26,957 bases of DNA from a virus: IMG/VR virus record IMGVR_UViG_3300032282_001124, positions 1-26,957 of that record, one strand, 5' to 3'. Both the position numbers and the translations under genes were made by a program. This document shows positions 2 to 20,813 of the stretch, piece by piece (the stretch's first letter is position 1; the number at the start of each line of letters is the position of its first letter). The notes beneath the pieces are model-generated. The model was not told the DNA's origin and did no database searches. It saw nothing but the letters and a program-made list of their open reading frames with translations.

Positions 2-241
2 GTACCGTCTACACCCTCGGCACCATCTGAGCCTCCTTCGGTTCCGTCCGTACCGTCTACACCCTCGGCACCATCTGAGCCTCCGTCTGTACCTTCCGTA
101 CCGTCTACACCCTCGGCACCATCTGAGCCTCCTTCGGTTCCGTCCGTACCGTCTACACCCTCGGCACCATCTGAGCCTCCGTCTGTACCTTCCGTACCGT
201 CTACACCCTCGGAGCCATCTGAGCCTCCGTCTGTACCTTCC
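2..241 (+). repeat. 48-bp tandem repeats encoding a 16-residue Pro/Ser unit
   Basis: Five consecutive 48-base units start at about 2, 50, 98, 146 and 194. Each encodes VPSTPSAPSEPPSVPS or a one-residue variant. The last part of the unit alternates between two versions (TTCGGTTCCGTCC and GTCTGTACCTTCC), giving a 96-base higher-order period. The array is in frame, is cut by the window edge and probably continues to the left. Confidence 0.9.
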
Positions 242-2074
242 GTTCCTTCCGTTCCCTCGGAGCCACCTTCCGTTCCTTCGGTACCCTCGGAGCCACCTTC
301 GGTACCCTCGGAGCCACCTTCCGTTCCTTCCGTTCCTTCGGAGCCACCTTCCGTTCCTTCGGCACCCTCCGTTCCTTCGGCACCCTCCGTTCCTTCGGCA
401 CCCTCCGTTCCTTCGGCACCCTCCGTTCCTTCGGCACCGTCTGTTCCTTCGGCACCCTCAGAGCCTCCGTCTGTTCCTTCGGCACCCTCAGAGCCTCCGT
501 CTGTTCCTTCGGCACCCTCAGAGCCTCCGTCTGTTCCTTCTGGGGAACCACCATCAATCGTCCCGTCCGATACCTCAATTGTGCCGTCCGACATCTCAAG
601 CGTGGTGGATTACTTAACGGGGAGAACGCCGTCTATATCAAGTGCCGATCAGGCGGCTTTAGATGCGGCTACTTTGTTTGCGCAAAGTAATTCATCTGGT
701 TTTAACAGTTTAAACAACGCGGCTACAACCACGCAAACTGGGAAAGTTATTGTTAGCCCATTAACAGCTACTGTAGTTAATGGTGTAGATATTGCGCAGT
801 ACTTTAGCAACCCCGCGTACAGGGCGGCTGTAGATGAATACCGTAGTAAGTACCCGGGCCAGCTACAGACCTTAGATGAAGTACTAAACACCGCAGCAGT
901 TACCGGACAGTACAACGGCGTCAACGTAGGCGGCGGATCAACAACCCCCTTTACAGCCCAAGTCCCAAGTGCGGCAGGTATCAGCACATTAGTCCCTTCC
1001 AGTGATGCGGGCATAGTCCCTAGCGCAACGGGCCTTGAGTCACTGGTCCCTGCTGGCGGCGATCAAACGCAGACGCAAATCCAAACCCAACCACCGCAAG
1101 GCGGCGATCAAACGCAGACGCAAATCCAAACCCAACCGCCACAAGGCGAACAAGTTGTTTCAAACATACCCGGTCGGTCATGCCCAGCGCCTTGGATCAA
1201 AATCACAATGGCTGACGGCGGCGTGGTCAACGCTGGCGATCTCAAACCCGGCATGACGGTCTACACACGCCATGAGACAACCGGCGAGTGGGGGAATTTC
1301 CCAGTCATGGCAGTCGAACAAGGAGAAGACACCCGTTGGGCTGTCCTCTTTGAAGGCGGCGCTGAGTTCGTGGGTACGTACAACCACCGCGTCATGACCG
1401 ACAAAGAATGGACTGAGATTCGCTATTTGCAGCCCGGCGACAAGGTTATGCAGCAGGACGGCTTTGCCGTTGTTAAGACAGTGAAATACCTTGACCACGG
1501 CCCCGTCGTGAAGATCGAAATCCAAGACGCCCACACTTACCTGAGCGAAGGCGTGCTGTCGCACAACATCAAGATTAACGAGGCAGGCGGCGAATACATG
1601 CAGCTTGCAGGCGATGCTTTTAATAGTCTTGATGAAGTTGATTACGCAGCCGATGGCGGCCTCATGACGCTAGCCAAGGGCGGTAAAGCACAACAGTTTT
1701 TCCGTAAAGGCAAGTTCAATTTCCAGCCAGCCCAGATGTATGCGGATGGCGGTATGCCGGTGGCCATGGCCATGGGCGGCTTGGGAACTTTGGGCGGCTA
1801 CTCCGATGGCGGTCGCTTACTTAAAGGCCCCGGCGATGGCGTATCTGACAGTATTCCTGCGACAATCGGGCGAGGCGCACAGCCAGCACGGCTGGCCGAT
1901 GGGGAGTTTGTAATCCCCGCCCGCATCGTGTCCGAACTGGGCAACGGTTCAACAGATGCAGGAGCCCGCAAGCTCTACGCTATGATGGATCGAGTCCAAC
2001 GCACACGTAGTAAAACAGTAGGCAAAAACAGGGTGGCCGTGAACAGCCGCGCTGACAGAAATCTTCCCGTATAA
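2..2074 (+). CDS. Virion structural protein with Pro/Ser repeat and Hint (intein-like) domain, 5' end outside window
   Basis: The frame is open from the left edge to the stop at 2072-2074. An apparent GTG start at 581 is unlikely: no Shine-Dalgarno precedes it, and the frame upstream has no stop and continues the same composition. Order of domains: about 185 residues of Pro-Ser-X repeats (2-545); a Ser/Thr/Asn-rich segment; two copies of a GDQTQTQIQTQPPQ repeat; a Hint domain (1181-1567) starting at Cys with a TYNHRV motif and ending in SHN; then Gly-rich motifs (ADGG, SDGG) and a conserved end containing GPGDGVSDSIPATIG and LADGEFVIPARIV. That C-terminus resembles virion proteins seen in many uncultured aquatic phages, so I infer a tail or fibre-associated structural protein. 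The repeat probably forms an extended polyproline-II spacer. The exact virion role is unknown. Confidence 0.85.
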   Translation, partial: VPSTPSAPSEPPSVPSVPSTPSAPSEPPSVPSVPSTPSAPSEPPSVPSVPSTPSAPSEPPSVPSVPSTPSEPSEPPSVPSVPSVPSEPPSVPSVPSEPPSVPSEPPSVPSVPSEPPSVPSAPSVPSAPSVPSAPSVPSAPSVPSAPSVPSAPSEPPSVPSAPSEPPSVPSAPSEPPSVPSGEPPSIVPSDTSIVPSDISSVVDYLTGRTPSISSADQAALDAATLFAQSNSSGFNSLNNAATTTQTGKVIVSPLTATVVNGVDIAQYFSNPAYRAAVDEYRSKYPGQLQTLDEVLNTAAVTGQYNGVNVGGGSTTPFTAQVPSAAGISTLVPSSDAGIVPSATGLESLVPAGGDQTQTQIQTQPPQGGDQTQTQIQTQPPQGEQVVSNIPGRSCPAPWIKITMADGGVVNAGDLKPGMTVYTRHETTGEWGNFPVMAVEQGEDTRWAVLFEGGAEFVGTYNHRVMTDKEWTEIRYLQPGDKVMQQDGFAVVKTVKYLDHGPVVKIEIQDAHTYLSEGVLSHNIKINEAGGEYMQLAGDAFNSLDEVDYAADGGLMTLAKGGKAQQFFRKGKFNFQPAQMYADGGMPVAMAMGGLGTLGGYSDGGRLLKGPGDGVSDSIPATIGRGAQPARLADGEFVIPARIVSELGNGSTDAGARKLYAMMDRVQRTRSKTVGKNRVAVNSRADRNLPV
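242..545 (+). repeat. Degenerate 9/18/30-bp Pro/Ser repeats
   Basis: This continues the repeat array in the same frame with shorter units: PSVPSEP-type units (242-360), 18-base units GTTCCTTCGGCACCCTCC (about 346-435) and three 30-base units encoding VPSAPSEPPS (about 441-533). Pro falls at every third residue apart from the EPP steps. All length changes are multiples of three, so the frame is kept. Confidence 0.85.
1055..1144 (+). repeat. 45-bp direct tandem repeat encoding GGDQTQTQIQTQPPQ
   Basis: Two adjacent 45-base copies (1055-1099 and 1100-1144) differ at only a few bases near their 3' ends. They encode identical 15-residue Gln/Thr-rich peptides just before the Hint domain and probably act as a flexible linker. 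Confidence 0.9.
1181..1567 (+). other. Hint (bacterial intein-like) domain inside the structural gene
   Basis: About 129 residues run from a Cys codon at 1181 to a His-Asn pair at 1562-1567. Hint hallmarks are visible: Cys at position 1 after Ser, a TMADGG strand, a block B motif TYNHRV with the conserved Thr and His, QPGDKV, and a final block HTYLSEGVLSHN. The residue after Asn is Ile, so the Cys/Ser/Thr nucleophile needed for normal trans-esterification and splicing is missing. There is no endonuclease insertion. This fits a bacterial intein-like domain capable of N- or C-terminal cleavage rather than clean splicing; that activity is inference. Confidence 0.8.
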
Positions 2075-2083
2075 GGACGCATC

Positions 2084-3106
2084 ATGGCTGATCCAACCCA
2101 AGTTAATTACACAAACACGTCGATCCCCGACTACGCCAAGCCGTACGTCGAGAACATGCTGGGCCAGTCCCAAGCGTTGACGGACATTAACCAATACCCG
2201 TATCAGAGTTACGAGGGACAGCGGGTTGCGCAGTTCACCCCGATGCAGCAGCAGTCCTACCAAGGCGCTGAGACAATGCAGCCCTCTTATCAACTCACAG
2301 GCGCAACCGGTCTGGCTGGGTTGGCGGGGCAACGCGGATTAAATGCCCAGTACAGCTACGACCCCTACCAGTCGCAAAGTGTTACTGCCGGGAATAATGT
2401 TCAAAACTACATGAACCCCTACATGCAAAATGTAGTGGACATTCAAAAGCGCGAGGCGCAGCGCCAGTCTGGCATCCAAGGCACCCAGCAGCAAGCCCAA
2501 GCAACCCAAGCCGGAGCCTTCGGCGGAGGCCGTGACGCCATCATGCGCGCTGAGCGCGAACGCAATCTTGGTACACAGATGGGGGACATCCAAGCGCAGG
2601 GCAGCAACGCAGCCTACCAACAGGCGCTGCAACAGTTCAATACCGAGCAGCAAGCACGGCAGGGCGCAGCCCAACTCAACGCCCAGCAAGGACAGTTTGG
2701 CGCAGGTCTGGGACTTCAAGGTCTGAACACCGCGCTGCAAGGGGCCAACACCTTAGGTACTCTGGGCCAAAACCAGTACCAGCAAGACATGGGCATCAAC
2801 CAGTTGCAAAACCAGTACGGCATGCAACAGCAAAATCAAGTCCAAAAAGTGTTGGATACAGGCTACCAAGACTTCCAGAATTACCAGAACTATCCGTACA
2901 AACAACTGGGTTTCATGTCCGACATGCTGCGCGGTTTGCCTTTGACTCAACAGGCAGAAACTATTTACAAGCAACCACCTTCTATGTTGACACAGATAGC
3001 GGGAGCCGCAGGCGTTGCCAAGGGCGCAGGTATGTTTAAAGAAGGCGGTCAAGTAAGGCCCGCAGGGTTGTCAGAGTTGGCTCTGTATCACATGCGTCAG
3101 GGGTAA
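2084..3106 (+). CDS. Gln/Tyr-rich phage virion protein
   Basis: This 340-residue protein starts at ATG with AAGGA eight bases upstream and follows the previous stop by nine bases. It is rich in Gln, Tyr, Asn and Ala and poor in Cys. A conserved-looking block near residues 105-190 contains YMNPYMQNVVDIQKREAQR, GAFGGGRDAIMRAERERNL and a following Gln-rich helix. Such blocks occur in uncharacterised virion proteins of uncultured aquatic phages. The C-terminus has MFKEGGQVRP, which resembles the ADGG motifs of its neighbours. No enzymatic domain was recognised. Its place between a structural gene and a transglycosylase gene suggests a tail, connector or internal virion component; the exact role is unknown. 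Confidence 0.85.
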   Translation: MADPTQVNYTNTSIPDYAKPYVENMLGQSQALTDINQYPYQSYEGQRVAQFTPMQQQSYQGAETMQPSYQLTGATGLAGLAGQRGLNAQYSYDPYQSQSVTAGNNVQNYMNPYMQNVVDIQKREAQRQSGIQGTQQQAQATQAGAFGGGRDAIMRAERERNLGTQMGDIQAQGSNAAYQQALQQFNTEQQARQGAAQLNAQQGQFGAGLGLQGLNTALQGANTLGTLGQNQYQQDMGINQLQNQYGMQQQNQVQKVLDTGYQDFQNYQNYPYKQLGFMSDMLRGLPLTQQAETIYKQPPSMLTQIAGAAGVAKGAGMFKEGGQVRPAGLSELALYHMRQG

Positions 3107-3109: not shown

Positions 3110-5155
3110 ATGCAGTTAAACGAAATTCAAGATGTAACGGACAGCCTAGCGCTGATGCCGGACCCCGCGCTGCAACAGTATGCGCAAATGCACAGAGACG
3201 ATCCGTATGTGATGTCGCTGGCCTTGAGCGAGAGCAACCGCCGCAAAAAACTCCGTGCCGCGCAGCAGGGACAGGCTGGGCAGATGCCCCAACCCAAGGT
3301 AGTCGATCAGGCCATTGCGGCTATGAACGCACCGCCGCCCCAGCAAATGATGCCCCCGCAACAAGCGGCTCCGCAGGCTGGCCCCCCGCCACAGGGCCAA
3401 GGCATTGCCCAACTCCCCACGCCCAACCTGCAAGGCATGGCTGACGGCGGCATCGCCGGGTACGATGATGACGAAGATGTGCAAGGCATGGCCCGTGGCG
3501 GCAACGCAGGCAGCGACCCTACAGCAGCGTATCGCCAGTATGCGTTGTCTCAAGCAGCCAAAATGGGGCTTGATCCGTCCGTGGTCGACAGCATTTTTAA
3601 AATTGAGTCCGGGTACAACCCCAACGCACAATCTCCTACCGGCCCGGTTGGCATTGGCCAACTGACCAAAGCTACAGGAAAAGCATACGGCGCTGCCGGT
3701 GAAGACCGCAAAGACCCGTACAAAAACATCGACGCTTCACTGGCGTACATGGCCGACTTGAAAAAGAAATACGGCAACGACCCAGAAAAGATTGCCGTAG
3801 CCTATAACCAAGGCGAGTCTGTGCTCAATAAGCACCTGCGCCAGAACAACGGCGAGATCAACCAAGCCAAACTTCCATCCGAAGCCCAAGGCTATTTGAA
3901 AAAGCTCAGTACCATGCTGACCGCCGCAGTACCAATTGGATCGGCTCAAGCTGCGCCTGTTGCGCAGGCTACCCCTGCTGCACAAGCCCCCGGACAACGC
4001 GTGGTAAACGGCTACGTGGTCGATCAATTTGGCATCCCGTTGTACAAAGCAGGCGAGACACCGAACACTACGCCAGCCAAAGATGAGCGCGGTATTTTTG
4101 AAAAAGGTGCGGACTACTTTGGGATTTCCCCGGAAGTTCAACGCAATGTTTCCAATACGTTTAACGCGCTCGGCGGATATTCTGCACCAGTGCAGGGCGT
4201 TGCTAAAGTATCCCAAGGGCTGGGAGCTACACCGGAAGCTATTGCGGCGGCAACAGCGGCGGCACAAAAAGCAGGCGCGTTGCGCATAGCGCCCCCAGTA
4301 GCTGAAGGAATTGCGGCACTACCAGCCGAAGCGCAGGCAGCAAGGGCTGCTGCTGAAACCGCACGCCGTGCGCGTTTGTTGGAGCAAGACCGAAAAGCTG
4401 CACAGGGGGCCGAAGCCTCCGTTAAAGCTGCGGATACTACTGCTGCTATTGCGCGTACAGGTGAAGAGGCCACTGCCGCTGAAAGAGCAAATGCCGCAGC
4501 GCGGGCTAACCAAGCGGCAAACGCCGCACGGGTTGGGTCATCCGTAAACTCAGCAGCACAAGGGGCCGCAGAAAGCGGTGGGGGTCAATACGGAGAGCCC
4601 GGAACGGGCGCGGGTAGCCAAGCCAACCGCGACTTGCTAATGCGCATGGAACGAGGCCAGCAAAATGCTGCGGGCGTTAAAGATACCAAAGACATTATTG
4701 CCGCCGCCAAGGAAACCGCCGACCCCGAAGTCAGCAAAGGTTGGACCAACGACGACTGGCTTACGTTTGGACTTGCCGCTTTGGCTACGGAATCTCCGCA
4801 TTTCCTACAAGGGATTGGCCAAGCCGGGCTTGCCACACAGAAACAGCGCCAAGCCAGAACCCAACAAGAATCTTCGCAAGAGCTTACCAAAGCTCAAATA
4901 AAGAAACTCAATGCTGACACAGATTACCTGAACGAACAGAAAGGCCAAAACGCCCTGCGCATGAAGGCGCTGTCTCTGGCATCTGCTGACATTGATAAGT
5001 GGATGTCGACGGCTGGCCTAGCGTCCACCCCAGAGGAACAGGACGCCGCACGTAAGAAAATCACCGCTTACTACATGCAACAGATGGGCGTGACTCCGGC
5101 TACAATGGGCGGAACTGGGATCGCGGGCTTTAAGTTCTTGGGAGCTGAAAGCTGA
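3110..5155 (+). CDS. Virion protein with soluble lytic transglycosylase domain
   Basis: This 681-residue protein starts three bases after the previous stop. Residues 75-110 are Pro/Gln-rich and include GMADGGIAGY and GMARGGNAG. Residues about 136-245 match an SLT-type lytic transglycosylase: KIESGYNPNAQS with the catalytic Glu at 166, then GPVGIGQLTKATGKAYG and PEKIAVAYNQG. This fold cleaves peptidoglycan between MurNAc and GlcNAc without water. The middle (about 240-520) is Ala-rich and probably helical, and the C-terminal third is charged, with coiled-coil character. Length and position beside a giant polyvalent protein suggest an internal or tail-associated ejection protein that opens the cell wall during DNA entry. 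A host-lysis role is less likely because no holin or signal peptide is visible. Confidence 0.85.
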   Translation: MQLNEIQDVTDSLALMPDPALQQYAQMHRDDPYVMSLALSESNRRKKLRAAQQGQAGQMPQPKVVDQAIAAMNAPPPQQMMPPQQAAPQAGPPPQGQGIAQLPTPNLQGMADGGIAGYDDDEDVQGMARGGNAGSDPTAAYRQYALSQAAKMGLDPSVVDSIFKIESGYNPNAQSPTGPVGIGQLTKATGKAYGAAGEDRKDPYKNIDASLAYMADLKKKYGNDPEKIAVAYNQGESVLNKHLRQNNGEINQAKLPSEAQGYLKKLSTMLTAAVPIGSAQAAPVAQATPAAQAPGQRVVNGYVVDQFGIPLYKAGETPNTTPAKDERGIFEKGADYFGISPEVQRNVSNTFNALGGYSAPVQGVAKVSQGLGATPEAIAAATAAAQKAGALRIAPPVAEGIAALPAEAQAARAAAETARRARLLEQDRKAAQGAEASVKAADTTAAIARTGEEATAAERANAAARANQAANAARVGSSVNSAAQGAAESGGGQYGEPGTGAGSQANRDLLMRMERGQQNAAGVKDTKDIIAAAKETADPEVSKGWTNDDWLTFGLAALATESPHFLQGIGQAGLATQKQRQARTQQESSQELTKAQIKKLNADTDYLNEQKGQNALRMKALSLASADIDKWMSTAGLASTPEEQDAARKKITAYYMQQMGVTPATMGGTGIAGFKFLGAES

Positions 5156-5195: not shown

Positions 5196-8100
5196 ATGCG
5201 CATCTACCGTGTACAAGGCCCGGATGGGCGTATATACCGTTTTGAAGGCCCAGACGATGCCACGCCAGAACAAGTAACTGCCGCCGTTGCGGCGCAGTTT
5301 GGCGGGCAAGAGGAACCCCCAGCCCCACCGGCCCCCGGCCCCCAACCCCAAGAAGGCTTTATACCTTCGCTCAAGGCGAGTACTTCCCGTCTTAAAAGCG
5401 ACATTGCGGGGTTGGCAGGTCGTACTGGCTTGATGGGCTTGCCTGAAGCCGAAAAATACATTGCCGAGCAAAAGGCTTACCAAGAAAAAACCCAGCGCCC
5501 AACTGAAAAAAGTTGGTCGGAAGACCCCCTAGCAAAAATTAAAGAGTTGGCTGGCGGCTCCTTGCCGTACATGGCGGCTCCAATTGTTGCCGGTCTTGCC
5601 GCCCCCGAGGCGCTTGGTATTGGGGCGCTCGGTCTTGGTGCCAGCACTGTTGGTGCTGGTTTGGCATCTGCCACGCAGTTTGCGGGTTCCGGCCTATCTC
5701 GGCAAATGGACGAAGGCAAAAAACTGGGCGAGACAAACCTTGCCGCTGCCGCCCTAGCCTCCATCCCCCAAGCCGCGTTGGATGTTTTTGGTTTGAAGAT
5801 GGTGCCCGGCATCGGCAAGATATTTGAAAAAGTAGGCATTGACATTTCCGAAAAGGCCGCTAGAGACATAGCCAAAGAGGGGCTGGCCAAAACAATTACA
5901 GATTACACGCTGACCACCGGCAAGACAATGGGCACCGAGGGCTTGACCGAAGCCGCCCAACAAGTCTTTGAGCGTTTGCAAGCTGGGTTGAGCATCACTG
6001 ACCCCGCAGCCCAAAAAGAATACTTTGACAATTTCATCGGCGGCGCTGTTCTTGGCGGTGTGATTTCTCCAGCAGGTCGTTACTTTGAGCGTGGTGCTGA
6101 ACAAACCCGGTTTAACCAGCAGCAACAAGCTGAGCCCGCAGAAGTTCCAGCGCAGACCCCGGTTCCTACGCAGCCTGAAATGCTTGCACTACCCGCACCG
6201 ACGGAACAAGCTACCCCAGAACCAACTCGGGGGATTCGGGAAACTCCGTACACACCGCCCCCGGCGGTTGAGCAACCACAACCGCCGTTGCAAAAAGCAA
6301 TGGAGATGCACGATCTGCTGGCCAAACAGTACAGCGATTTAAAAACGCAGTACACAACTGCCGCTCAGAACCAAGACACAACTACGCTACGTGCACTGCG
6401 CCCCCAGTTAACGCAAATGCAAATAACTTTGGCAAAGTCCAACGACTACATTGATAGTCTTGGCGGAACGACCAAACCCCAAGAAGAACTAGATACGGCG
6501 CACCAAGCGGCATTGGCGGTGGTAGACCGGCACATCAGCACAATTTCTAAAAAACTGGTTGAGGCCACGCAAAACGATAACCACACTGCGGTGGATAAAT
6601 ACTCGGGCACGTTGGACACCCTGAAAGCGCAACGGGAAAACTTAATTCAAAAGTACACCCAGCGTAGTGCCGCGGCGCAGCAAAAAGCAGACAACGCACT
6701 TAACTTGTCCCAACGCGGGCAGACCCGCGATTTGTTCACGGAACAAGAAGCGCCCGTACCCAAAACACTAGAAGCACCAAAGTCCAAGTACTTGGAAGAC
6801 CAAGGCGTCAAACTGACCCCCGAGCAAAAGGCTGCTATTGATGCCGCGTCCGCCGCGCAAGCTGACCTTGGCCCCACTTCGGACGATGTAAAGCGCAAGT
6901 TGGCAATCCAAACGGCTGAGCACATTGGCGGTCAGATCGACAACCTCAAACGCGAAGTCACTAACATGACCAGCCAAGGGTACCTTGCGGACAGCCAAGG
7001 CGCTCCTAATCCTGAAGTTACAAATAAGTTTGCCCAGATCCAAGCGTTGCAAACCCAATTTGATGCGTTGACCAAACAGTACTCCGACGCCCAACCAAAA
7101 ATGAAGCCGCTGGGTTTATTTGACCCAGACAACATGCTCAAGACTTCCGTTGACAACGGCGACATTGACGCTATTAACCGCCTGACTCAGCAACGCAAAC
7201 AACAAAACCTGCTCGACCGTAACCAAAAACGTGAAGCCGAGAAGGCTGAGAACGACCGGCTGATTAATTCGTTGGACGAGCGTTTAGGGCTAGCCGGTAC
7301 AAAGTCAACCCGCATTTCTGAAGGCAATGAGTACGATGCTCTTGTTGCTGAGATCCAAGCTATCCGGGACAAAATTGAAAAAGTACAAGGCAATTCCAAG
7401 TACTCTGTGCGCGACAGGCTTGATGTAATTGCCGCTGAGCACGAAGAAAAGAAAGCACTCTACAACAACCCTAAAGCAACTAGCCGCCAAAGGGCCGGTG
7501 CGCTTAAGCGCATGAACTCGCTGGTAAAAGAATTCAACGGTCTTGTGGACTCGGTGCTAGACCCCGCAATCAAAAACATCCAAGAGATTCACGCCAAGTT
7601 CCGCAAAGTTGAGCCTGCCAAAAAAGTCAGCGAAGTCAAGGCTGAGAAAGCTGCGCTATTGAAAGTTGAAGGTAAGGACATCAAGATGTCGCCGGAAGCC
7701 CGGCAAGCCAAACGCATCAACGAAGGCAAGATTGCGCCCGAAGTAGAAAAAAGCAAAGCCGTTAAAGACATCGCAAGAGAACTGGGCGGACAAACGACCG
7801 AGTACAAAGACACTTTTGATGAAATCCATCGCCGTTATGCCGCTTTGAAAGAGCGCTATGGCGCAGACGACAAGTCCGCTCAAGCATTTAAAAAAGAATC
7901 TTTAGAGACTTTGGACAAGCTCAGGATTAAATTGGGCCGCGCTACACCTGAGTACAAAGCCCGATTAAAAGAATTGGTTGCCCAACTCCAAGAGTCTTAC
8001 GCCAGCGCGGGGCCACAAGAGATTGCAAGCAAGCGTACGCAACAAGTAACGCGCCGCACAAATACAGCCCCACGGGAATTTAGCGGGGTGCTCAGCCGTG

Positions 8101-11100
8101 CGTCCAAGCAGGAACTCAAGCAAAAGCAGCAAAGCATATCGCAGGAATTTAGAGAAGCCACCGCAAGCGAGAATGAAACTTACGGCATGCGCCCAGACAT
8201 ACGCGGCTTCATGTCTAACATGGAGAAATCCCGCGAAGCACGCGGCGTTGAAGTCGAGAGCCCAGACCTGACCAAAGAGCAAGTCCAGCATATTGACAGC
8301 AACGATATCCGCGCCGCGTTGAACAGCGTAGCAAATGACAGTAGTGCCAGCCCCTTGAACCGCGCTGTTGCCCAGCGCTTGGCAGGCATACTGGATAACA
8401 CCGACATCTTTGCAATTGACAATCTGAAAAATGCAGAAGGCGAAGAGCTACTGGGTCAGGCTATCTCGACTGAGGTACAGCTAAACCGCCAAAAGGGTAT
8501 GACCCAAGAGGTCTTACTGCATGAGAGCACACACGCTGCGGTTGAGCGGATCATTGTTCTGTTTGAAAAAGACCCCAGCCTGTTGACCGAGACGCAGCGC
8601 GTAGCCATGCAGGAACTCAAAGCTTTGCATGCCGCCGTCAAGAGCGACCCATCTATTACCAGCGCCAATGCCAAGGGCAGCTTATCGGAGTTCGCCGCTG
8701 AAATCTTGTCCAACCGCAACTTGCAAGAGCAGCTACGCAGCAAGAAGTGGAAAATGTCGGACGCATGGCAAGGTGTTAAGAGCATCATCCTGCGCTTGCT
8801 TGGGTTTAGCAAAGCTGAAACCGAGACCATGTTGGGTGCCGGTATCCAAGCCGTCGATGCGTTGATGATACCGTCTAGTGTGCGCGGCGTGGTCAAGGGC
8901 AAAACAGTGGTGGCTTTTGATGAGCACATAGAAGGCGTTAAAGACGTCCCGTACTCCAACGCTCAGAAAGACATTGCTGCTTTAGATTCCGGCAGCAACT
9001 CCATGAAGCAGTTTGCGGAAGCGTTTGCGCTGGATATCAAGCAAAAAGACCGCACGCCAGAAGACGTTGAGCGTATTGCCAACGCATACATGGGGTCAGT
9101 GTACGATAAGCCCGAGCAGTATATAAAGCTGCCCACCGCTGATACGCTGGATTACACCGTGCGTATGTCGGACGGCAAACAATTTGACCCAGACAACCCC
9201 CTGCACTACGTGGAAGCCACCAGCGTGGACTTTGCCATGTTACAAGCGCAGGGCGACCCGAAGATGCGTGAACGAGAGGCTGAAGCAATCGAAGACGCTA
9301 GGTTAACTGACTTAAATAAATTAGCCCAAAGCCTTGAGGCTTCGCAAGATTTTACTAATGTGGAACGGGCTTTAGTTTTAAAAGCTGCAATAAAACACTC
9401 GGTTGTTTCCGGTGATGACGGGCGTTTAAAACTTGTAAATATTGATGACAGCAACAGGCACAATGTTGCTGTAGTTAGCGCTGCGGATGCGGCGTTTGTT
9501 ATTCAGAAGCTGCGCGAAGGTTTGCCGTTAAAGAAAGCATTCCTTGAGGGCCTGCAAGAAAACGCTGACCGCAACGCGGACGTAAACAAAGCGTTAAACA
9601 AAAACGGTTGGCAAAAATTTGACCAAGTACCAAAAAACCAAGATTCCCAAAAAGCAGCGGAGGAGTTAAATGCGGCATGCGCGGGAACTCCGTGGTGCAC
9701 TGGTAGCAGCATTAAGTCTTATGCTAGAGGCCAAATTGAAAGCGGGGATTTTTACGTCTACTATAAGGATGGTAAACCGCAAGTTGCTGTGCGCATGGAC
9801 GGCCAAAATAAAATTGGCGAAGTACGCGGCAATGCCCCACAACAAGCGCTTACTCCTGAACAACAAAAAATTGCTACGACTTTTTTAGCCAGCAAAAATT
9901 TTGAAAATTCAAAAAACTACCTTGCTGAATTTGATCGAAAAGCAAGCCTTGTTAATATTGCCAAAGGCGAAACAAATATTGCCCTTGATGAATTTTATAT
10001 CAACGATATTTTAACAAAAGATTTTGATACTAAAGAATATAAAATTGATAAAAGCGAATACAGGTTTGGCAAACTGTTTAAATTTAAAGCTGTTGATGGT
10101 TACGGGGGCAGGCCGCCACCGTCAGACGCCGTAAAAACTTTTTTTGCTAACAAACTCAATGATGTGGTAACGCAGCAATTTGAGCAAAACAATTTTGTGG
10201 GCGTAGATGCGTATTTTGAATACGAAAAATACAGTGGCGGGGACCTTAAACGTGTACCACTTGATATTTTATTTAACGGTAAAAAATACACTATTGACCC
10301 AAAAACGGTTAAAGAGCTTGGGGGGCTTAGTGTAGTTAGTAATTTATCGGATTTTCCTAATTTAGAAAAAGTAGGCGATCTTAAATTTATTGGTGGTAAT
10401 GGTCATGATTTTCCAGCGCTTAAAAAAGTTGGCAATTTAATCGTAGGCACTGCTGATCCAGTTACTTCACGTTTAGCCGCAGGAGCTGAAGTTGGCAGCA
10501 TAGGGGCGTATGGCAGAGAAGAGCACAGCGCCACTATATACGGCATGGAGACGGTAGGGGAACTCAACTTATCAGAAGGTAATTCCTATCTAAAACTTAC
10601 TGCGCCGGATCTTTTGTATGCGCCAAAACCTGAGCCAGTTACGTTTAGGGAATACCGTTTAAGCAGGGCGGTTACAAAATACCTAGAAGGATTAAATGAA
10701 CCAGCACGCAAAAACCCTGCACTGGTTAACCAGTTTTATAACAAACTGCCAGAACGGTTTATAAAACAAATAAAAAAAGACATAGCATCAGAGCATCCGG
10801 ATTTATACAGTGCAACTTTAGATGATTTGATGAGTACGGTAATGCGCAGTATTGAAAACGCAAACCCTACGCAAACTGAAATTTTTGCCGTACATAAAGC
10901 CGTAAATGACTTTTGTAAATTAAATGATTACGAAAAATATGCAGAGATCCCCGGCACGCTTACAGCACCCAAATTAATTGGCGATACACCGCCAGCACCA
11001 AGGCTGACCGAAGCCCCCGAGGCCCCACGTTACGCCAAGGTTGGCGTGGTCAAGGACAAAGAGGGCAACAGTTTCTTCCGCTCCCGCACGGAGGCTACAT

Positions 11101-13682
11101 CGTTTGGCAGTTCTTTTATTGCCAAAGAAACCAGCGCCAAGGACAAGTTCCTTGGTAACGTCATGGGCATCACTGGGCGCGTTCAGTTTGTTGACCGGTT
11201 TGCTGCGCTGTCTGAGGCCTTGAAGCAAGGCGTCAACGATAAAGTCCTTGGTAGCCTTGAGGCGCAGAACGCTGAGTATTTCCTTCGTTTCGGACAAAAC
11301 CGCAGCCAGCTTGCAGGCCAAGCGCTGACCAACGGGAACATCCGCATCCGCCAAGGCAAGGGCGGCGGGTTTATCTACGAGAGCGTCAAGGGCCCAAACA
11401 TGATGGACGTGGCCACCGCGCTGGAAAAAGGTAAGTTTAAAAACGACACCGAGGCCGAGGCAATCCTGACGGCTTACGTAGCTGGGCTGCGTGCGGATGT
11501 TGTTGGTTGGGAGAAACTTAACTTTGAGAACACCGCCAAGGTAAAGCAAGAACACGCCGAGATCATGGCTATGCTGCGGACCAACCCTGAGAAGATGGAT
11601 GCGGTTAAGGAAGCTGCGCGTATATACAAAGAGTACAACGACGGCTTGGTAGATTTTGTTACGCAGGCTGGCTACATTACCGAGAAACGCGCTACTGAGC
11701 TTAAGAAGACGCCGTACATTCCTTTTTACCGCGTCAACAAAGCCAACAACAATGTTGAGTTGATGATCGACAAAGAGCACGCCATCCGCATTGGTAACTT
11801 GAAGGATGAGCCCCAGCTTCACGAGTTGATTGGCGACAACAAGCACATCATGCCAATCTTTACCAGCGCGGTGCAAAACACCTTTATGTTGACAGACATG
11901 GCGCTGCGCAACAAGTCCGTGCAAGAGTCTGCGTTTTTGCTGCACAAGATGGGTATGGCTAGCGTCATCAGCGAGGGTGTTGGCCCAGCCAACTCAAGCA
12001 CTGTCCGGTTTCATGTCAAGGGTGTGCCACACTTTGTAACCATTGACAAGGACGTGTACGGCATCCCTGCTGATCTGATTGTCAAGGGGCTTGAAGGTAT
12101 TAAAACCACGCTGCCCGCAGCGGTGCAGATGATGGGTATGCCAGCAAACTTGTTGCGTAACTTTATTGTGCGCAACCCAGCCTACGCCATACGCCAAGTT
12201 ATCCGTGACCCGATGACTGCATGGCTGACCACCGGCACAGACGCTACGCCGATCCTTGCGTCTATGCGCGAATTGGCTACGATGGTGGCCGGACGCAACG
12301 AAACTGAAGCCCAATTGATGGCCACGGGCGCTATCAGCAGCAACGTGTTTACCGGCGACCAACGGGACATGTCTAAGTTCCTCAAGGAAATCAGCACTGG
12401 TAAATCTGGTTGGGCCAAGTTGATGGCCAAGGCCGACGCGCTGGCACTCCAAGGCGATGCCGCAACCCGCGCTGTGGTCTACAAGGACTCGTTGGACAAG
12501 GGCATGTCTGAGCAGGCAGCGCTGCTGCGCACGTTGGAGTCAATGAACTTTAACCGCCGTGGTCTGTCGCCAAGCATCCAGTGGCTCAACACCATGATTC
12601 CGTTTTTCAATGCGCAGATCCAAGGTCTGGACGTGTTGTACCGGGCGTTCAAAGGCGACATGCCGTATAGCGAACAATTAAAAATCCGCGAAAAACTGGT
12701 GGCCCGCGGGTTACTGCTTGCCGCAGGAACTTTGGCCTACGCTGCCATGATGCAGGACGACGAGGCGTACAAACGCGCCAAACCCGAAGAGCGCTACGGT
12801 AACTGGTTTGTGTACGTCCCCGGCTTGGATGAGCCGCTTAAGATCCCTGTGCCGTTTGAATTGGGCTACCTATTCAAGTCGTTGCCGGAGGCGGTATTTA
12901 ATGTAGCGGCTAACGACGAGAAAGCCAAGGTTGCCATCGGCGGTATGCTGACGCTTATTGACCAGTCCAACCCGTTACAGCTACCAGCAGCTATCAAACC
13001 GTTAACCGAAGTTTATTTGGGCAAATCGTTTTTTGGTGGCGATATTGAATCTGCCCGCGAGAAGAAAATGTTGGCATCTGAACGCTCCCGCGACTCAACC
13101 ACTGAAGCTGCCAAACTACTTAGCAAGGTTACGGGCGCGGGCTTAATACACGACCTGACCGGGCACGAGGGTGTGTCGGCCATCAGCATCGACCATTTGG
13201 TTCGCGGGTACACCGGCGGTCTGGGCGTTGCGCTGGTGCAGCTTGCCAACCCGCTGCTTAACTCTGAGTTACCTGCCGAAGTAGCCAAGCCCAGCACACC
13301 GCTGAGCAAGCAGCCGTTTATTGGCGGTCTGTTCCAGCCAGTACAAGGGCGCGGCACACTGGACGCAGCCTACGACCAAATGTTGTATGTACAACAAGTC
13401 AAGGGTACGTTTGACGACATGATTGCCAAGGGCCAGAAAGCCGAAGCCCGAGCATTTATGCAAGAGCACATGGCGGAGATGTCGCTGACATCAATATCGG
13501 GCGCAGTGCAAAAGCAACTCGGTGAGCTTGCCAAACAGGAGCGCATGATTAAGGCATCGCCCAACCTGACAACCGAGCGCAAGGATGAGTTGCTCAAACG
13601 CTTGGATCAGGTAAAGCAGAAGATCGCTCGGGGTTCGATGGCGGTTTACGATAAAACCAAAGACCGATTTGACCGTTCTTGA
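5196..13682 (+). CDS. Giant polyvalent (ejection) protein, 2828 residues, with HExxH motif and LPD38-like C-terminus
   Basis: The start is an ATG with AAGGA upstream. The N-terminus (RIYRVQGPDGRIYRFEGPDDATPEQV) is a short domain common on large phage ejection proteins. Residues about 122-165 are hydrophobic and Gly/Ala-rich. Residues about 340-950 are Pro-rich linkers and long charged coiled coils. A zincin-type motif LLHESTHAAVE lies at His1109-His1113. Residues about 1368-1926 form an AT-rich insert with TPWCTG (Trp1500) and leucine-rich-like repeats. From about 2440 the sequence MNFNRRGLSP...MIPFFNAQIQG resembles LPD38, a domain of large polyvalent proteins described by Iyer, Aravind and colleagues. 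The family is thought to be packaged and injected with DNA, and to carry enzymatic domains that act on host defences. The domain calls are by pattern only. Confidence 0.85.
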   Translation: MRIYRVQGPDGRIYRFEGPDDATPEQVTAAVAAQFGGQEEPPAPPAPGPQPQEGFIPSLKASTSRLKSDIAGLAGRTGLMGLPEAEKYIAEQKAYQEKTQRPTEKSWSEDPLAKIKELAGGSLPYMAAPIVAGLAAPEALGIGALGLGASTVGAGLASATQFAGSGLSRQMDEGKKLGETNLAAAALASIPQAALDVFGLKMVPGIGKIFEKVGIDISEKAARDIAKEGLAKTITDYTLTTGKTMGTEGLTEAAQQVFERLQAGLSITDPAAQKEYFDNFIGGAVLGGVISPAGRYFERGAEQTRFNQQQQAEPAEVPAQTPVPTQPEMLALPAPTEQATPEPTRGIRETPYTPPPAVEQPQPPLQKAMEMHDLLAKQYSDLKTQYTTAAQNQDTTTLRALRPQLTQMQITLAKSNDYIDSLGGTTKPQEELDTAHQAALAVVDRHISTISKKLVEATQNDNHTAVDKYSGTLDTLKAQRENLIQKYTQRSAAAQQKADNALNLSQRGQTRDLFTEQEAPVPKTLEAPKSKYLEDQGVKLTPEQKAAIDAASAAQADLGPTSDDVKRKLAIQTAEHIGGQIDNLKREVTNMTSQGYLADSQGAPNPEVTNKFAQIQALQTQFDALTKQYSDAQPKMKPLGLFDPDNMLKTSVDNGDIDAINRLTQQRKQQNLLDRNQKREAEKAENDRLINSLDERLGLAGTKSTRISEGNEYDALVAEIQAIRDKIEKVQGNSKYSVRDRLDVIAAEHEEKKALYNNPKATSRQRAGALKRMNSLVKEFNGLVDSVLDPAIKNIQEIHAKFRKVEPAKKVSEVKAEKAALLKVEGKDIKMSPEARQAKRINEGKIAPEVEKSKAVKDIARELGGQTTEYKDTFDEIHRRYAALKERYGADDKSAQAFKKESLETLDKLRIKLGRATPEYKARLKELVAQLQESYASAGPQEIASKRTQQVTRRTNTAPREFSGVLSRASKQELKQKQQSISQEFREATASENETYGMRPDIRGFMSNMEKSREARGVEVESPDLTKEQVQHIDSNDIRAALNSVANDSSASPLNRAVAQRLAGILDNTDIFAIDNLKNAEGEELLGQAISTEVQLNRQKGMTQEVLLHESTHAAVERIIVLFEKDPSLLTETQRVAMQELKALHAAVKSDPSITSANAKGSLSEFAAEILSNRNLQEQLRSKKWKMSDAWQGVKSIILRLLGFSKAETETMLGAGIQAVDALMIPSSVRGVVKGKTVVAFDEHIEGVKDVPYSNAQKDIAALDSGSNSMKQFAEAFALDIKQKDRTPEDVERIANAYMGSVYDKPEQYIKLPTADTLDYTVRMSDGKQFDPDNPLHYVEATSVDFAMLQAQGDPKMREREAEAIEDARLTDLNKLAQSLEASQDFTNVERALVLKAAIKHSVVSGDDGRLKLVNIDDSNRHNVAVVSAADAAFVIQKLREGLPLKKAFLEGLQENADRNADVNKALNKNGWQKFDQVPKNQDSQKAAEELNAACAGTPWCTGSSIKSYARGQIESGDFYVYYKDGKPQVAVRMDGQNKIGEVRGNAPQQALTPEQQKIATTFLASKNFENSKNYLAEFDRKASLVNIAKGETNIALDEFYINDILTKDFDTKEYKIDKSEYRFGKLFKFKAVDGYGGRPPPSDAVKTFFANKLNDVVTQQFEQNNFVGVDAYFEYEKYSGGDLKRVPLDILFNGKKYTIDPKTVKELGGLSVVSNLSDFPNLEKVGDLKFIGGNGHDFPALKKVGNLIVGTADPVTSRLAAGAEVGSIGAYGREEHSATIYGMETVGELNLSEGNSYLKLTAPDLLYAPKPEPVTFREYRLSRAVTKYLEGLNEPARKNPALVNQFYNKLPERFIKQIKKDIASEHPDLYSATLDDLMSTVMRSIENANPTQTEIFAVHKAVNDFCKLNDYEKYAEIPGTLTAPKLIGDTPPAPRLTEAPEAPRYAKVGVVKDKEGNSFFRSRTEATSFGSSFIAKETSAKDKFLGNVMGITGRVQFVDRFAALSEALKQGVNDKVLGSLEAQNAEYFLRFGQNRSQLAGQALTNGNIRIRQGKGGGFIYESVKGPNMMDVATALEKGKFKNDTEAEAILTAYVAGLRADVVGWEKLNFENTAKVKQEHAEIMAMLRTNPEKMDAVKEAARIYKEYNDGLVDFVTQAGYITEKRATELKKTPYIPFYRVNKANNNVELMIDKEHAIRIGNLKDEPQLHELIGDNKHIMPIFTSAVQNTFMLTDMALRNKSVQESAFLLHKMGMASVISEGVGPANSSTVRFHVKGVPHFVTIDKDVYGIPADLIVKGLEGIKTTLPAAVQMMGMPANLLRNFIVRNPAYAIRQVIRDPMTAWLTTGTDATPILASMRELATMVAGRNETEAQLMATGAISSNVFTGDQRDMSKFLKEISTGKSGWAKLMAKADALALQGDAATRAVVYKDSLDKGMSEQAALLRTLESMNFNRRGLSPSIQWLNTMIPFFNAQIQGLDVLYRAFKGDMPYSEQLKIREKLVARGLLLAAGTLAYAAMMQDDEAYKRAKPEERYGNWFVYVPGLDEPLKIPVPFELGYLFKSLPEAVFNVAANDEKAKVAIGGMLTLIDQSNPLQLPAAIKPLTEVYLGKSFFGGDIESAREKKMLASERSRDSTTEAAKLLSKVTGAGLIHDLTGHEGVSAISIDHLVRGYTGGLGVALVQLANPLLNSELPAEVAKPSTPLSKQPFIGGLFQPVQGRGTLDAAYDQMLYVQQVKGTFDDMIAKGQKAEARAFMQEHMAEMSLTSISGAVQKQLGELAKQERMIKASPNLTTERKDELLKRLDQVKQKIARGSMAVYDKTKDRFDRS
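9290..10975 (+). other. AT-rich inserted segment in the polyvalent protein gene
   Basis: Base composition changes sharply inside one open frame. For example, 9961-10020 has 18 of 60 G+C, while 12421-12480 has 41 of 60. Codons shift to AAA, TTT, AAT, ATT and TTA. The segment encodes about 560 residues, including GTPWCTGSSIKSYARG with a following YKDGKPQVAVRMDG strand (reminiscent of PcfJ-like domains) and repeats such as FPNLEKVGDLKF and FPALKKVGNLIV. The borders look like a Lys/Glu-rich stretch on the left and a Pro-rich linker (PPAPRLTEAPEAPRY) on the right. Confidence 0.7.
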
Positions 13683-13764: not shown

Positions 13765-13794
13765 ACAGGGGATGAAAAACCCCTGTCCTTTTTC
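13765..13794 (+). terminator. Rho-independent terminator for the rightward virion genes
   Basis: The stem ACAGGGG (13765-13771) pairs with CCCCTGT (13780-13786) around an A-rich loop, followed by CCTTTTTC. It sits between the stop of the giant gene (13682) and the stop of the leftward primase-helicase gene (13793). Read leftward, the same stem is followed only by TTTGG, so it would be weaker in that direction, perhaps aided by the neighbouring hairpin. Confidence 0.8.
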
Positions 13795-16747
13795 AAGACG
13801 TTGCCAAGGCCAGCGGATGTCTAATTTCTTCATCTAGCTCATCTTCCGGTCGAGTTATCTTGATGACCGCCACCCGCATTGCCGGGCCGTTGGTCTTAGA
13901 CAGCAAGTCCTTCTTGGGTAGGTAGGACACCACAAACTGCTTTTCAATCCGCGCCTTGAATTCAGCATAACCAAAGCTGTGGCCAGAGCAGTATGCTTTG
14001 AGCAAGCGCTCCTCAATGAAGAAGTCCACGCATCCAATAGATACGCCGTGCTCAATGCGCCCCATAACCTCTGAGCGTGTGGTGTTCTTATCCACAGCGG
14101 TGCTGTCGCCCAGCCGCGCCATAGGCCCAGCCTTGTCGCCGTAATGCACGATGACAAACTTGCCAAAGTACTCCTGCACGAAACCGTTGAGGATGTCTTC
14201 AGCGCTGCGCTTACCCGCTTTCATGGCGGTGCGTATTGTATTGATGCTGCGGCGGTAGCTCTCGATTAACGGTTCGATTGGTACGTCAACTATGCCAGCG
14301 TACTTGCTACCAAAACATATTGCGGCGGTTATCCCGCAGCCTACCCCAGCCATCCAAAAACGCTCGTCGTTGGGTGCGGTATACACCTTGTACATCTGCG
14401 TCACGGTCTTCTTGGTCATTTCCTTGACGGCCTCGGTGTTGTCCACCATGTACTGCGCCCATACAGCGCCAGCCACCGCATAGTTTTCCTGCAACGACTT
14501 GATGATTTCGATTTCTTCAGGGCTCCAAGCCAGCTTTTCATCCATGATCCACTCCAGCGTGCGGCGCAGTTCCCCTTCTGAGGAGTGCTTGCGCGCCCCG
14601 GTCAGGTAGTCCACGCCGTGCGTGTTGGAGGATAGCAAGGCAAAGGTTGACCATGTGGACAGGTTCAAGCGCTCTTTGTTGGAGCCGGACTCCATGCGCT
14701 CCTTACCCCGCCCCTCGCTGACCGTCATGCTGAACGCGGGGAACCACTCGAAGTCTTTGTGGTTCAGCGTGGTGATCTCGTCGCTGACAAACGGCAGGCT
14801 GTGTAGCATGCCCAAGCGCTGCTGCATCGCAACAGGAGATGTGCCCGAGCCTGTGCGGTAGTGCGTAGGGTGGCCCCAAATTGAAGCAGCCCCGTCCAAA
14901 GCCAGCGACTTACCTGTGCCAGATTCAGTCGAGCAGCAGTGTATGGTCAAACCGTACAGTCCGGTAAAGCGCATCAGCGGTGCGCCAGCGCCTAGGAAAA
15001 TGATAGCTAGTTGATCCCATAGCTTGCGCGAGACAAGCAGGTTTATAAACTTGACCCAGTTCTCCATCGTGCCGGTGATCTGCGTATTGGCCACAAGATT
15101 CTCCAGCCCCGGCAACGGTATCTTTACTGGCGCTTTGCCAGCCTCGTAAATCATGCCGCCGTGCAGGAATGTGTTGTCGGCTTGCCAGCCGTAATGGTCA
15201 GGCACCTCAACTGGTGCTTTCTCGCTGCTAAGCTTTTCTACCGCAGCACGTACATAATCAAACAGGTTCTTGTCATTGCCAGAACCAAATGCCGCCACTA
15301 TGTTTTGTGCAGCCAAATTTTTAAGTGTTTCGTCTTTACTCACAACAGCCCTTTGAGGTAATGTAACTTCCTGTGCCCAACCTTTACGCATCGCCACCAT
15401 GTGGATGGTGTGCTCACCCTTAATGTTAAGGATGTCCAGCGGGAACAGATCAAATGGGAGCAACATGATTTGCCGCTTGGTCTTATTGCCGTCAGCGTCT
15501 TCATCATCGCGCTCCATAAAAATCCCGCCGTGTTGCCCATAGGCATACCCACGCGGGGGCTCGGGCCGCAGAACCTTCTCTGCCTTCCCGTTTTCTTGCT
15601 CGATCTCAACGACCTTGGCTTCAGTACTTACTGCCGTTTCCCGGCCCAGCGCCAGTGGGTTGGTGATCTTGCCCCAGTGCAAGCAGTTTGGGCAGATGCC
15701 GGGATTCTCCGAATCAAATTTGGTACAGGGGTATGGCCCCTTGATCTCAGCCAGCTTGGTACGCATCCGGTCTTCATCATAGGGGTGCAACTCGCTCAGC
15801 CATATCACCGCCTTCTCGCCGTCCTCACACTTTTGCGCAATGCTCAAGTGTGCCCGCCACAACGGCTCCATGCCGTCCTCGGATGCGTGCTCCGCATAGT
15901 GTCGAAGTTGGTCGCAGCCTCGCCCGGCTTTGGTGGCCTTGAAGATGTTGCCAAACTTGGTGACCGAGTTCTTAAACATCTCCAGCATCGTGCCCGATGG
16001 GGCCTGAGTCGGCCTTGTCCCCGGCAGCATGAGCGCATCTTCGCGTGGGGCCTTAACCTCGTAGGCCGTACCCACCAAGTGTTTCTCTACCAGCGCCCGA
16101 ATGTCGTTGAAGTCAAAGTGGTCACCAGCGTTTTTAAATTTAACCTGCGTGACCTCCCGAACTTTTTTCTTGTTCTTGATGCCAGTGTTGACCGTATCAA
16201 AGACGCGCAGCACCCTTGATGCGTCAGCCGTAATCGTTTGGTCAATGTCCAGCTTCTTTTGAAAGCACAGACGCTTGAACCCTTCGGCTACAGGCTTCCA
16301 CTCGTTGATATCCACGGCCTCATGGAACGGCCAGTATGCGTGTACCCCGCCGCCCGAGGCTACCAGCCAAGGGTTGCCCAGCCCAGACAGTCCCACCTCT
16401 TCGGCAAACTGCATGATGGCTTGGGCCGCAAACTTGGCCGATGCGTACGCCTTGGGTTTAATTGTCCCGTCTTTCTCGGGAATGTCCTTGGGGTGGTTGC
16501 AATCAACGTCCACTGCTATGCAACGAACCATTTGCACATTGGTTGCAAGGCGGCGATCCAAATCTCCAAACGTACCCAGCGCAAAATAAACGTCAAGCCC
16601 TTGCTTGTTCCACACGTCTATTGCTGTTTGCGCCTGATCCAACGTGTCTACAAAAATATGCTCCTTATGCTTTGATAATTCAACAACACAGTACCTACCA
16701 TTTCCCGGGGGCGGCAGTACCTCCGCTAGAAATTCAAGCGGTTCCAT
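13793..16747 (-). CDS. Primase-helicase fusion (AEP-like primase plus DUF927-like helicase)
   Basis: This 984-residue protein starts at ATG with AAGGA upstream. The N-terminal 200 residues resemble an archaeo-eukaryotic-type primase: AVDVD (Asp80 and Asp82, metal ligands), SGGGVHAYWPF (131-141) and DASRVLRVFDTVN near 175-187. A small Cys group (YPC, ICPNC) follows and may bind zinc. The second half has a P-loop ESGTGKS (Gly610-Ser614) followed by LALDGAASIWG and a Walker B region LPFVSDEITT (Asp656, Glu657), the pattern of DUF927-like replicative helicases. It should synthesise primers and unwind DNA at the phage fork. It is the last gene of the leftward arm and ends at the terminator region. 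Function is confident from motifs; the exact family names are by recognition. Confidence 0.85.
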   Translation of the reverse strand: MEPLEFLAEVLPPPGNGRYCVVELSKHKEHIFVDTLDQAQTAIDVWNKQGLDVYFALGTFGDLDRRLATNVQMVRCIAVDVDCNHPKDIPEKDGTIKPKAYASAKFAAQAIMQFAEEVGLSGLGNPWLVASGGGVHAYWPFHEAVDINEWKPVAEGFKRLCFQKKLDIDQTITADASRVLRVFDTVNTGIKNKKKVREVTQVKFKNAGDHFDFNDIRALVEKHLVGTAYEVKAPREDALMLPGTRPTQAPSGTMLEMFKNSVTKFGNIFKATKAGRGCDQLRHYAEHASEDGMEPLWRAHLSIAQKCEDGEKAVIWLSELHPYDEDRMRTKLAEIKGPYPCTKFDSENPGICPNCLHWGKITNPLALGRETAVSTEAKVVEIEQENGKAEKVLRPEPPRGYAYGQHGGIFMERDDEDADGNKTKRQIMLLPFDLFPLDILNIKGEHTIHMVAMRKGWAQEVTLPQRAVVSKDETLKNLAAQNIVAAFGSGNDKNLFDYVRAAVEKLSSEKAPVEVPDHYGWQADNTFLHGGMIYEAGKAPVKIPLPGLENLVANTQITGTMENWVKFINLLVSRKLWDQLAIIFLGAGAPLMRFTGLYGLTIHCCSTESGTGKSLALDGAASIWGHPTHYRTGSGTSPVAMQQRLGMLHSLPFVSDEITTLNHKDFEWFPAFSMTVSEGRGKERMESGSNKERLNLSTWSTFALLSSNTHGVDYLTGARKHSSEGELRRTLEWIMDEKLAWSPEEIEIIKSLQENYAVAGAVWAQYMVDNTEAVKEMTKKTVTQMYKVYTAPNDERFWMAGVGCGITAAICFGSKYAGIVDVPIEPLIESYRRSINTIRTAMKAGKRSAEDILNGFVQEYFGKFVIVHYGDKAGPMARLGDSTAVDKNTTRSEVMGRIEHGVSIGCVDFFIEERLLKAYCSGHSFGYAEFKARIEKQFVVSYLPKKDLLSKTNGPAMRVAVIKITRPEDELDEEIRHPLALATS

Positions 16748-16766
16748 AGGAATCCTTGGGAAATAG

Positions 16767-16943
16767 TTAAGACAGGTCGAGTTCTAATTGGTCAGGGTTG
16801 TGGGGACGTTCGGTCTTCCAGTCTTTCTCAGTGCGGTGCAGTATTTCTGCAACCCAGTTTGGCGGTAGTTTGTCGTAGCCTGTAATGTAGGCAAGACGCT
16901 CCAGTTCGCTGTTGGTTAGGGATTGAGGTTGTAGGCTGTGCAT
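16767..16943 (-). CDS. Small hypothetical protein, 58 residues
   Basis: The chosen ATG at 16943 has GGAGAAG at good spacing (GGAGAAGAATATG). An in-frame ATG four codons upstream would place that Shine-Dalgarno inside the gene and is less likely. The protein is acidic at its end (PDQLELDLS) and contains SELERLAYITGYDKLPPNWVAEIL. No family was recognised. It overlaps the end of the helix-turn-helix gene by 28 bases and lies 19 bases before the primase-helicase gene, which suggests co-transcription and translational coupling. Confidence 0.65.
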   Translation of the reverse strand: MHSLQPQSLTNSELERLAYITGYDKLPPNWVAEILHRTEKDWKTERPHNPDQLELDLS

Positions 16944-17194
16944 ATTCTTCTCCATGCTTCGTCGGCAGTTTGTGATGTTGACATGATGCTGTTAAGTAAG
17001 TCCACGCGCTGTTGATACGCGACAAAAACTTCCTTGCCAGCAAACCAGTTGTAGACCGTCTGACGCGTTACGCCCAAGGCGTATGCAATCTTGGTCACGG
17101 GAAACTCAAGATGTACGGCCCAACGCCCAAGCGTATTGCCCGGTGTTCGCGGAGCCGTCCGTATCAAGTCTTTAGTTTTTTCTGAGTAGGCCAT
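16916..17194 (-). CDS. Helix-turn-helix DNA-binding protein
   Basis: This 92-residue protein has a helix-turn-helix near residues 32-56: VTKIAYALGVTRQTVYNWFAGKEV, with the usual Ala/Gly turn and a recognition helix TRQTVYNWF. This pattern is typical of small phage regulators or DNA-packaging/replication accessory proteins. The ATG is only seven bases after a strong hairpin (17202-17221) and no free Shine-Dalgarno is visible, so its translation or transcription may be controlled by that structure. It is upstream of the small protein and primase-helicase genes. Confidence 0.75.
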   Translation of the reverse strand: MAYSEKTKDLIRTAPRTPGNTLGRWAVHLEFPVTKIAYALGVTRQTVYNWFAGKEVFVAYQQRVDLLNSIMSTSQTADEAWRRICTAYNLNP

Positions 17195-17201
17195 AGTTTT
17201 G

Positions 17202-17221
17202 ACAGGGGCCGAAGCCCCTGT
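17202..17221 (-). promoter_or_regulatory. UUCG-type hairpin / inverted repeat before the helix-turn-helix gene
   Basis: On the leftward transcript ACAGGGGC pairs with GCCCCTGT around TTCG, a C(UUCG)G tetraloop of exceptional stability. It lies between the stop of the preceding gene (17225) and the ATG at 17194. It is followed by CAAAACT, not a U-tract, so it is not an ordinary terminator. It could be an mRNA processing or stability element, a translation block, or an operator for the downstream regulator. The stem core is the same as in the terminator at 13765. Confidence 0.6.
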
Positions 17222-17224
17222 GAG

Positions 17225-17566: not shown

Positions 17567-17582
17567 GTTGCTTCTCGGTTAA

Positions 17583-18512: not shown

Positions 18513-18526
18513 CTTAATTTCCTTGG

Positions 18527-18928: not shown

Positions 18929-18999
18929 TAACTTCTCCTGTTTTGTTGTCTAAGGTTGGACAGTTTACACGGTTTTTTGAGACATACAACTCCTTTCAT
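18928..18999 (-). CDS. Possible 23-residue ORF coupled between two genes
   Basis: The ATG overlaps the stop of the helicase gene (ATGA) and the stop overlaps the next ATG (TAATG). The peptide MKGVVCLKKPCKLSNLRQQNRRS is basic with two cysteines. There is no good Shine-Dalgarno for this start. A competing six-residue frame (ATG at about 18985) has AAAGGAG just upstream. It could be a coupling leader, or the fit could be chance. Confidence 0.3.
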   Translation of the reverse strand: MKGVVCLKKPCKLSNLRQQNRRS

Positions 19000-20555: not shown

Positions 20556-20568
20556 GTGCTTCTCTTAT

Positions 20569-20802: not shown

Positions 20803-20813
20803 CACAGTTCCTT

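Follow-up and report, generated by a model that had tools for sequence, protein, structure and literature searches.

How could a protein-splicing domain join the two sides of its host protein when the residue that should receive the upstream side is missing? The question is raised by the IMG/VR virus record IMGVR_UViG_3300032282_001124, analysed here in its entirety (26,957 bases, hereafter the window), in which a phage structural gene encodes a Hint domain that ends in His-Asn (HN) and is followed by Ile, not by Cys, Ser or Thr. The answer that we favour, tentatively and with somewhat less than an even chance of being right, is that the domain is an active self-processing Hint resembling the bacterial intein-like (BIL) domains and accessory to phage structural proteins, in which a Lys at position +1 or +2 after the final Asn would accept the acyl group of Cys1, so that the domain would be excised and an isopeptide link left behind. 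At a slightly lower level of confidence, we consider that it may represent a widespread phage family of splicing domains with Lys at +1/+2 replacing Cys, Ser or Thr, whereby virion proteins would mature by excision into an isopeptide-linked branched chain. The relevant features are the following.

1181-1567, plus strand: Hint domain of exactly 129 residues, from motifs, profiles and predicted fold
1181-1183, plus strand: Cys1, invariant in 45 aligned relatives
1376-1387, plus strand: block B TxxH (Thr66-His69), with the His invariant and Ser or Thr at -3 throughout
1526-1540, plus strand: block F DAHTY (residues 116-120), with AHTY invariant, largely because the first search pattern imposed it
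1562-1567, plus strand: block G, penultimate His128 and terminal Asn129, kept in relatives found without an HN constraint
1565-1567, plus strand: codon of Asn129
1568-1570, plus strand: Ile at +1
1571-1573, plus strand: Lys at +2, the proposed acyl acceptor; Lys at +1 or +2 in 45 of 46 and 82 of 85 clusters of relatives

The evidence that carries this answer is the Lys. IMG/VR was scanned by alignments and by two degenerate DNA patterns, the first of which (H[TS][YF]..EG....HN) left the residues after HN free. It returned 99 frames that a profile of the domain split cleanly into 56 members and 43 others, and truncating the profile at the final Asn left the 56/43 split unchanged. After grouping of the members into 46 clusters under 90% identity, Lys was found at +1 in 26 clusters and at +2 in 19; among the 43 others, which serve as control inteins from the same scan, 34 have Cys, Ser or Thr at +1 and five have Lys at +1 or +2. 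The second pattern fixed N-terminal motifs only and yielded 101 frames with a visible end, 62 of them new; their 85 clusters have Lys at +1 in 48 cases and at +2 in 34, and block F, which this pattern left free, is retained in most of them. Not one of the 46 or the 85 clusters carries Cys, Ser or Thr at +1, and hence the absence of a +1 nucleophile, which the earlier note had deduced from the Ile of the window, holds for the whole family. Because both patterns leave +1 and +2 free and the profile cut at Asn agrees, we rejected the explanation that the search pattern or the profile columns had produced the Lys artificially.

Background Lys in the following residues amounts to about 2% per position, or about 4% for two positions. 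The corresponding binomial value of 8e-112 (2e-30 at 50% identity) assumes independent clusters and is optimistic; a better argument is provided by the tree, on which the Lys changes register (+1 or +2) five times or more, four of the changes being forced by well supported branches. The same residue persists where little else follows the domain. Besides two short tails in the first scan, of two residues in L276 (SHN-FK-stop) and of four in L267, the second scan contains 40 members with tails of 5-15 residues after the Asn, and the Lys is kept on otherwise variable tails of two (FK), five, six, seven and eight residues. In ten of the 11 short-tail cases checked, the gap to the start of the next gene is at most about 60 bases; in the eleventh the contig ends. 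Lys is the only residue of the C-terminal flank seen to be conserved throughout. A Lys that stays within two residues of the Asn, shifts register freely and survives on a two-residue tail is, as far as sequence can tell, what an acyl acceptor would look like.

From the domain, its fold, the active-site set, the missing nucleophile and the conserved Lys, all of them observed, we infer every chemical step of the process. Cys1, with the help implied by the equally conserved block B His, would take over the upstream peptide bond as a thioester through an N-S acyl shift. Classical transesterification is impossible without a +1 nucleophile; since Cys, Ser and Thr are absent there, we propose that the side-chain amine of the conserved Lys (+1 or +2) would receive the acyl group. 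Cyclisation of Asn129, aided by His128 as the conserved HN suggests, would free the Hint domain. What remains would be the host protein without Hint, whose two parts are tied together by an isopeptide bond; where Hint comes last, a shortened protein with a short Lys-linked tag would result.

That the domain itself is genuine is clear from several lines of evidence. The complete Hint of about 129 residues with Cys1, TxxH and HN, which had been read from the sequence alone, is confirmed by motifs, profiles and structure prediction in agreement. Single-sequence matches to known families are weak (PT-HINT 6.4e-5, NCBIfam intein models 2e-5, DnaX mini-intein 3.6e-5), and the window domain stays below the Pfam gathering cut-off for PT-HINT with 23.7 versus 27.7 bits, a level that its relative L236 exceeds with 29. 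The profile of 45 relatives matches PDB entries far more strongly, namely BIL2 at 6.5e-12, the DnaX mini-intein at 8.5e-12 and the BIL structure 2lwy at 1.3e-11, scores that do not separate these three. The AlphaFold2 model, built with the alignment of the relatives, has a mean predicted local distance difference test (pLDDT) score of 89.8, with about 93-98 over the Hint domain. Foldseek places 6y75 on top (2.4e-11), its first three chains all being BIL2 of the Tetrahymena BUBL1 locus, with mini-inteins within one order of magnitude; VIA-align gives Z values of 20-21 to DnaB mini-inteins and BIL2 alike. The window domain thus has the fold and the block A, B, F and G motifs of the Hint superfamily. 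It is also under purifying selection, as comparison with the closest relative, L083, shows (dN 0.067, dS 0.52, dN/dS about 0.13). Across the family, Cys1, the block B His and the final His-Asn hardly vary; a random loss of Cys1 or HN among homologues was looked for and not found, except in decayed copies of two tandem arrays.

Among known Hint systems, BIL2 of the BUBL1 polyubiquitin locus in Tetrahymena thermophila (PDB 6y75, 6tmm) comes out on top in both the profile and the Foldseek comparison; it shares the fold and has, in its crystallised construct, Met at +1, likewise without Cys, Ser or Thr. It differs from the phage domain in being eukaryotic, in lying between ubiquitin-like domains with the acceptor Lys in the next domain, and in sequence (about 18-20% identity); no ubiquitin-like family was reported in the window or in the proteins of the relatives, unlike BUBL. 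With A-type BILs such as that of C. thermocellum (PDB 2lwy) the phage domain shares both of the sequence features that were tested, an HN end without +1 nucleophile and a location in variable regions of non-conserved proteins, whereas it resides in phage structural proteins and has the near-invariant Lys at +1/+2, which is unmentioned in passages of the BIL reviews. Class 1 mini-inteins (Mtu RecA, Ssp DnaB, Spl DnaX) have the same fold, Cys1, TxxH, block F and HN, but the two features that define them, Cys, Ser or Thr at +1 and insertion in a conserved site of a conserved protein such as an enzyme, are both lacking here. Pretoxin HINT (PF07591) and the Hog domain of Hedgehog also share the fold; the phage domain is set apart by its score below the Pfam cut-off, by the lack of a visible sterol region and by its retained HN. 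A BIL-like, probably self-processing Hint in a phage structural gene is supported, although the profile scores give it no firm place within the BILs.

Isopeptide-forming excision ranks first in our assessment, ahead of cleavage without ligation, and then of ligation through an alpha-amine and conjugation in trans. A precedent is BIL2, whose splicing reportedly creates an isopeptide bond with a Lys (PMC8616854). Several points weigh against it. Lys is missing from +1/+2 in three of the 85 clusters of the second scan, L337 having it at +3, L387, a tandem array, at +4, and L199 having Arg-Arg in a tandem copy without Cys1; the sole exception of the first scan, L267 (L151/L267), has it at +3. Without deprotonation, an epsilon-amine is a poor nucleophile, and the Lys could act instead on Asn cyclisation or by its charge. 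Mini-inteins score about equal to BIL2 in Z and E-value, so that the specific link to BIL2 is weak, and the acceptor Lys of BIL2 is located in the flanking ubl5 domain.

The second explanation, that of a BIL which only cleaves, we regard as rather unlikely, if the most serious competitor. The Cys1 thioester would be hydrolysed, the Asn would cyclise, or both, parting the rod from the C-terminal domain as a maturation step while the Lys tunes cyclisation. BIL domains are described as yielding predominantly cleaved products in PMC7664689, and an effect of position +2 on splicing is noted for Npu DnaE in PMC7765530; moreover, the Hint lies exactly between a variable stalk and the conserved domain in the window as well as in L083, L084, L141, L146 and L205. 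A tuning role, however, does not obviously need a Lys kept through register shifts. In about 40 relatives, no more than 2-15 residues follow the Hint, which leaves no C-terminal domain to release, yet HN and Lys are still kept; because of these relatives, we rejected release of the C-terminal domain, the purpose suggested in the earlier note, as the general function of the Hint. If taken to mean that without a +1 nucleophile the flanks cannot be joined, the same note's corollary is not supported: such BILs are reported to ligate in some cases, according to PMC7664689, PMC7765530 and PMC5874633, which cite Aranko 2013 and Dassa 2004, and the Lys at +1/+2 suggests a substitute acceptor.

Improbable, in our judgement, is splicing without any nucleophile, of the kind suggested for A-type BILs, in which the Lys would help by charge. 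In the alpha-amine route of such splicing, cyclisation of the Asn comes first and leaves the +1 residue with a free alpha-amine, which then attacks the thioester at Cys1 and forms a normal peptide bond. The match of the family profile to 2lwy speaks for this route, which leaves unexplained why Lys, and only Lys, is fixed at +1/+2. We give a still smaller chance to conjugation in trans, whereby the Hint would activate the upstream virion protein and attach it, through a Lys, to another subunit or to the host, as a phage counterpart of BUBL dispensing: BIL2 does conjugate ubl4 to different substrates (PMC8616854) and Hint is the last domain in many members, but no Lys would need to be fixed in cis within two residues of the domain. 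Finally, a decayed, inactive intein remnant or an ordinary mini-intein is very improbable, for despite the absent +1 nucleophile and the decay of some tandem copies (L199), the active-site set is kept across very divergent proteins, dN/dS is low, insertion is in variable linkers and only one in 80 of the nearest host-domain relatives has a Hint.

Coming back to isopeptide-forming excision, the family in which it is proposed is large, lives in uncultured phages and is borne by unrelated structural proteins, with tail-tip and jumbo-phage proteins among them. These include a protein of 2922 residues, apparently a tail tape measure (L088), DUF4815/phrog_358 structural proteins (L187, L200, L112, L228), a Phage-tail_3 protein (L267), a collagen-like tail protein (L239), a protein of 570-580 residues in phages with contigs of 200-335 kb (L161, L160) and several members of the window's own C-terminal-domain family. 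In that family, the Hint is absent from 79 of the 80 nearest relatives and, where present, belongs to two different clades; it is because of this distribution that we consider it an accessory domain, apparently gained more than once. Insertion is in variable linkers of the host proteins and not in conserved sites.

Outside IMG/VR the family is scarce. A search of IMG/VR with the single window sequence found no relatives; the peptide pattern found no member in 84,980 prokaryote genomes, and none was found in plasmids. In the sequenced phages of INPHARED, the only recognised member is the uncultured record MT835519 (SHN|IKQQEQLQ*). The two other phage hits inspected that have a clear C-terminal junction, in Microcystis phage Mvi-JY20 and Desulfovibrio phage SRB7757, were discarded as ordinary inteins with Ser or Cys at +1.

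Some members have unusual architectures. Two to four tandem Hint domains per protein occur in L199 (1-2892), the related contig L279, L112, L202 and L387; in L199 the first copy keeps Cys1 and has lost HN (SRTVK), the second keeps HN and has lost Cys1, and the pair looks as if it shared one set of ends. A clade including L315, L322, L323, L354, L355, L369, L377 and L383 has Hint as last domain, with tails of 5-11 residues starting [ILYA]K, and many of its members have GGYCVTEDTPILLADGT-like starts. A second, distant group of phage Hints ends in VVHN (L188, L194, L196, L197, L261), also with Lys at +1; its relative L212 has Cys at +1, and Lys and Cys seem interchangeable there.

Since Hint domains have already been named in some uncultured phage proteins, the kind is known; no description of such a phage Hint family was found in the open-licence literature, nor apparently one of the fixed Lys or of the distribution over structural proteins. 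If the Lys is the acceptor, the family would provide protein splicing that ends in an isopeptide bond, by a compact domain with built-in acceptor and many natural variants, and with it a new maturation route for virion proteins and a possible ligation tool. Regardless of its role, structural genes of uncultured phages repeatedly carry putative autoprocessing Hint domains, and BIL function becomes directly testable in a simple system.

The host gene and its surroundings in the window comprise the following features.

2-2074, plus strand: host gene, phage structural or internal virion protein, 690 codons, 5' end missing at the contig end
2-595, plus strand: Pro/Ser-rich repeat rod within the N-terminal flank, from sequence
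1054-1146 (ends approximate), plus strand: two direct repeats GGDQTQTQIQTQPPQ directly N-terminal to the Hint, from sequence
1778-2071, plus strand: conserved C-terminal domain (YSDGGRLLKGPGDGVSDSIPATIG...GEFVIPARIVSELGNGS), from sequence relatives
2084-3106, plus strand: DNA-ejection-protein-like neighbour (phrog_4287, 5e-11)
3110-5155, plus strand: neighbouring internal virion protein with lytic transglycosylase domain (PF01464, 1.6e-22; phrog_342, 1.3e-24)

The host protein is encoded directly upstream of the DNA-ejection-like and lytic transglycosylase genes and so probably belongs inside the virion or with the tail. Its intact relatives measure 1412 residues (L083) and 821 residues (L084), and the gene also encodes a Gln/Thr repeat besides the rod, the Hint and the C-terminal domain. 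The conservation of the latter, asserted previously, is real: this domain, with its GEFVIPARIVSELGNGS, has at least 595 matched stretches in IMG/VR contigs; it bears a weak resemblance to the C-termini of tape measures, and AlphaFold2 gave no confident or usable fold for it (pLDDT 50). The open frame on the minus strand at 1-594 (GTDGGSEGAEG...) mirrors the Pro/Ser repeats and is probably no gene.

Further downstream, a single gene of 2828 codons occupies 5196-13682 on the plus strand, its match to a phage family being limited to the last 680 residues (phrog_9854, 8.7e-36). The remainder of the window, 13793-26957, carries replication genes on the minus strand, opposite to the structural genes: DUF927/primase-helicase, SNF2 helicase, exonuclease, DNA polymerase and resolvase. 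One stretch among these genes, 18527-18928, has its match in a family that bears the label minor head protein.
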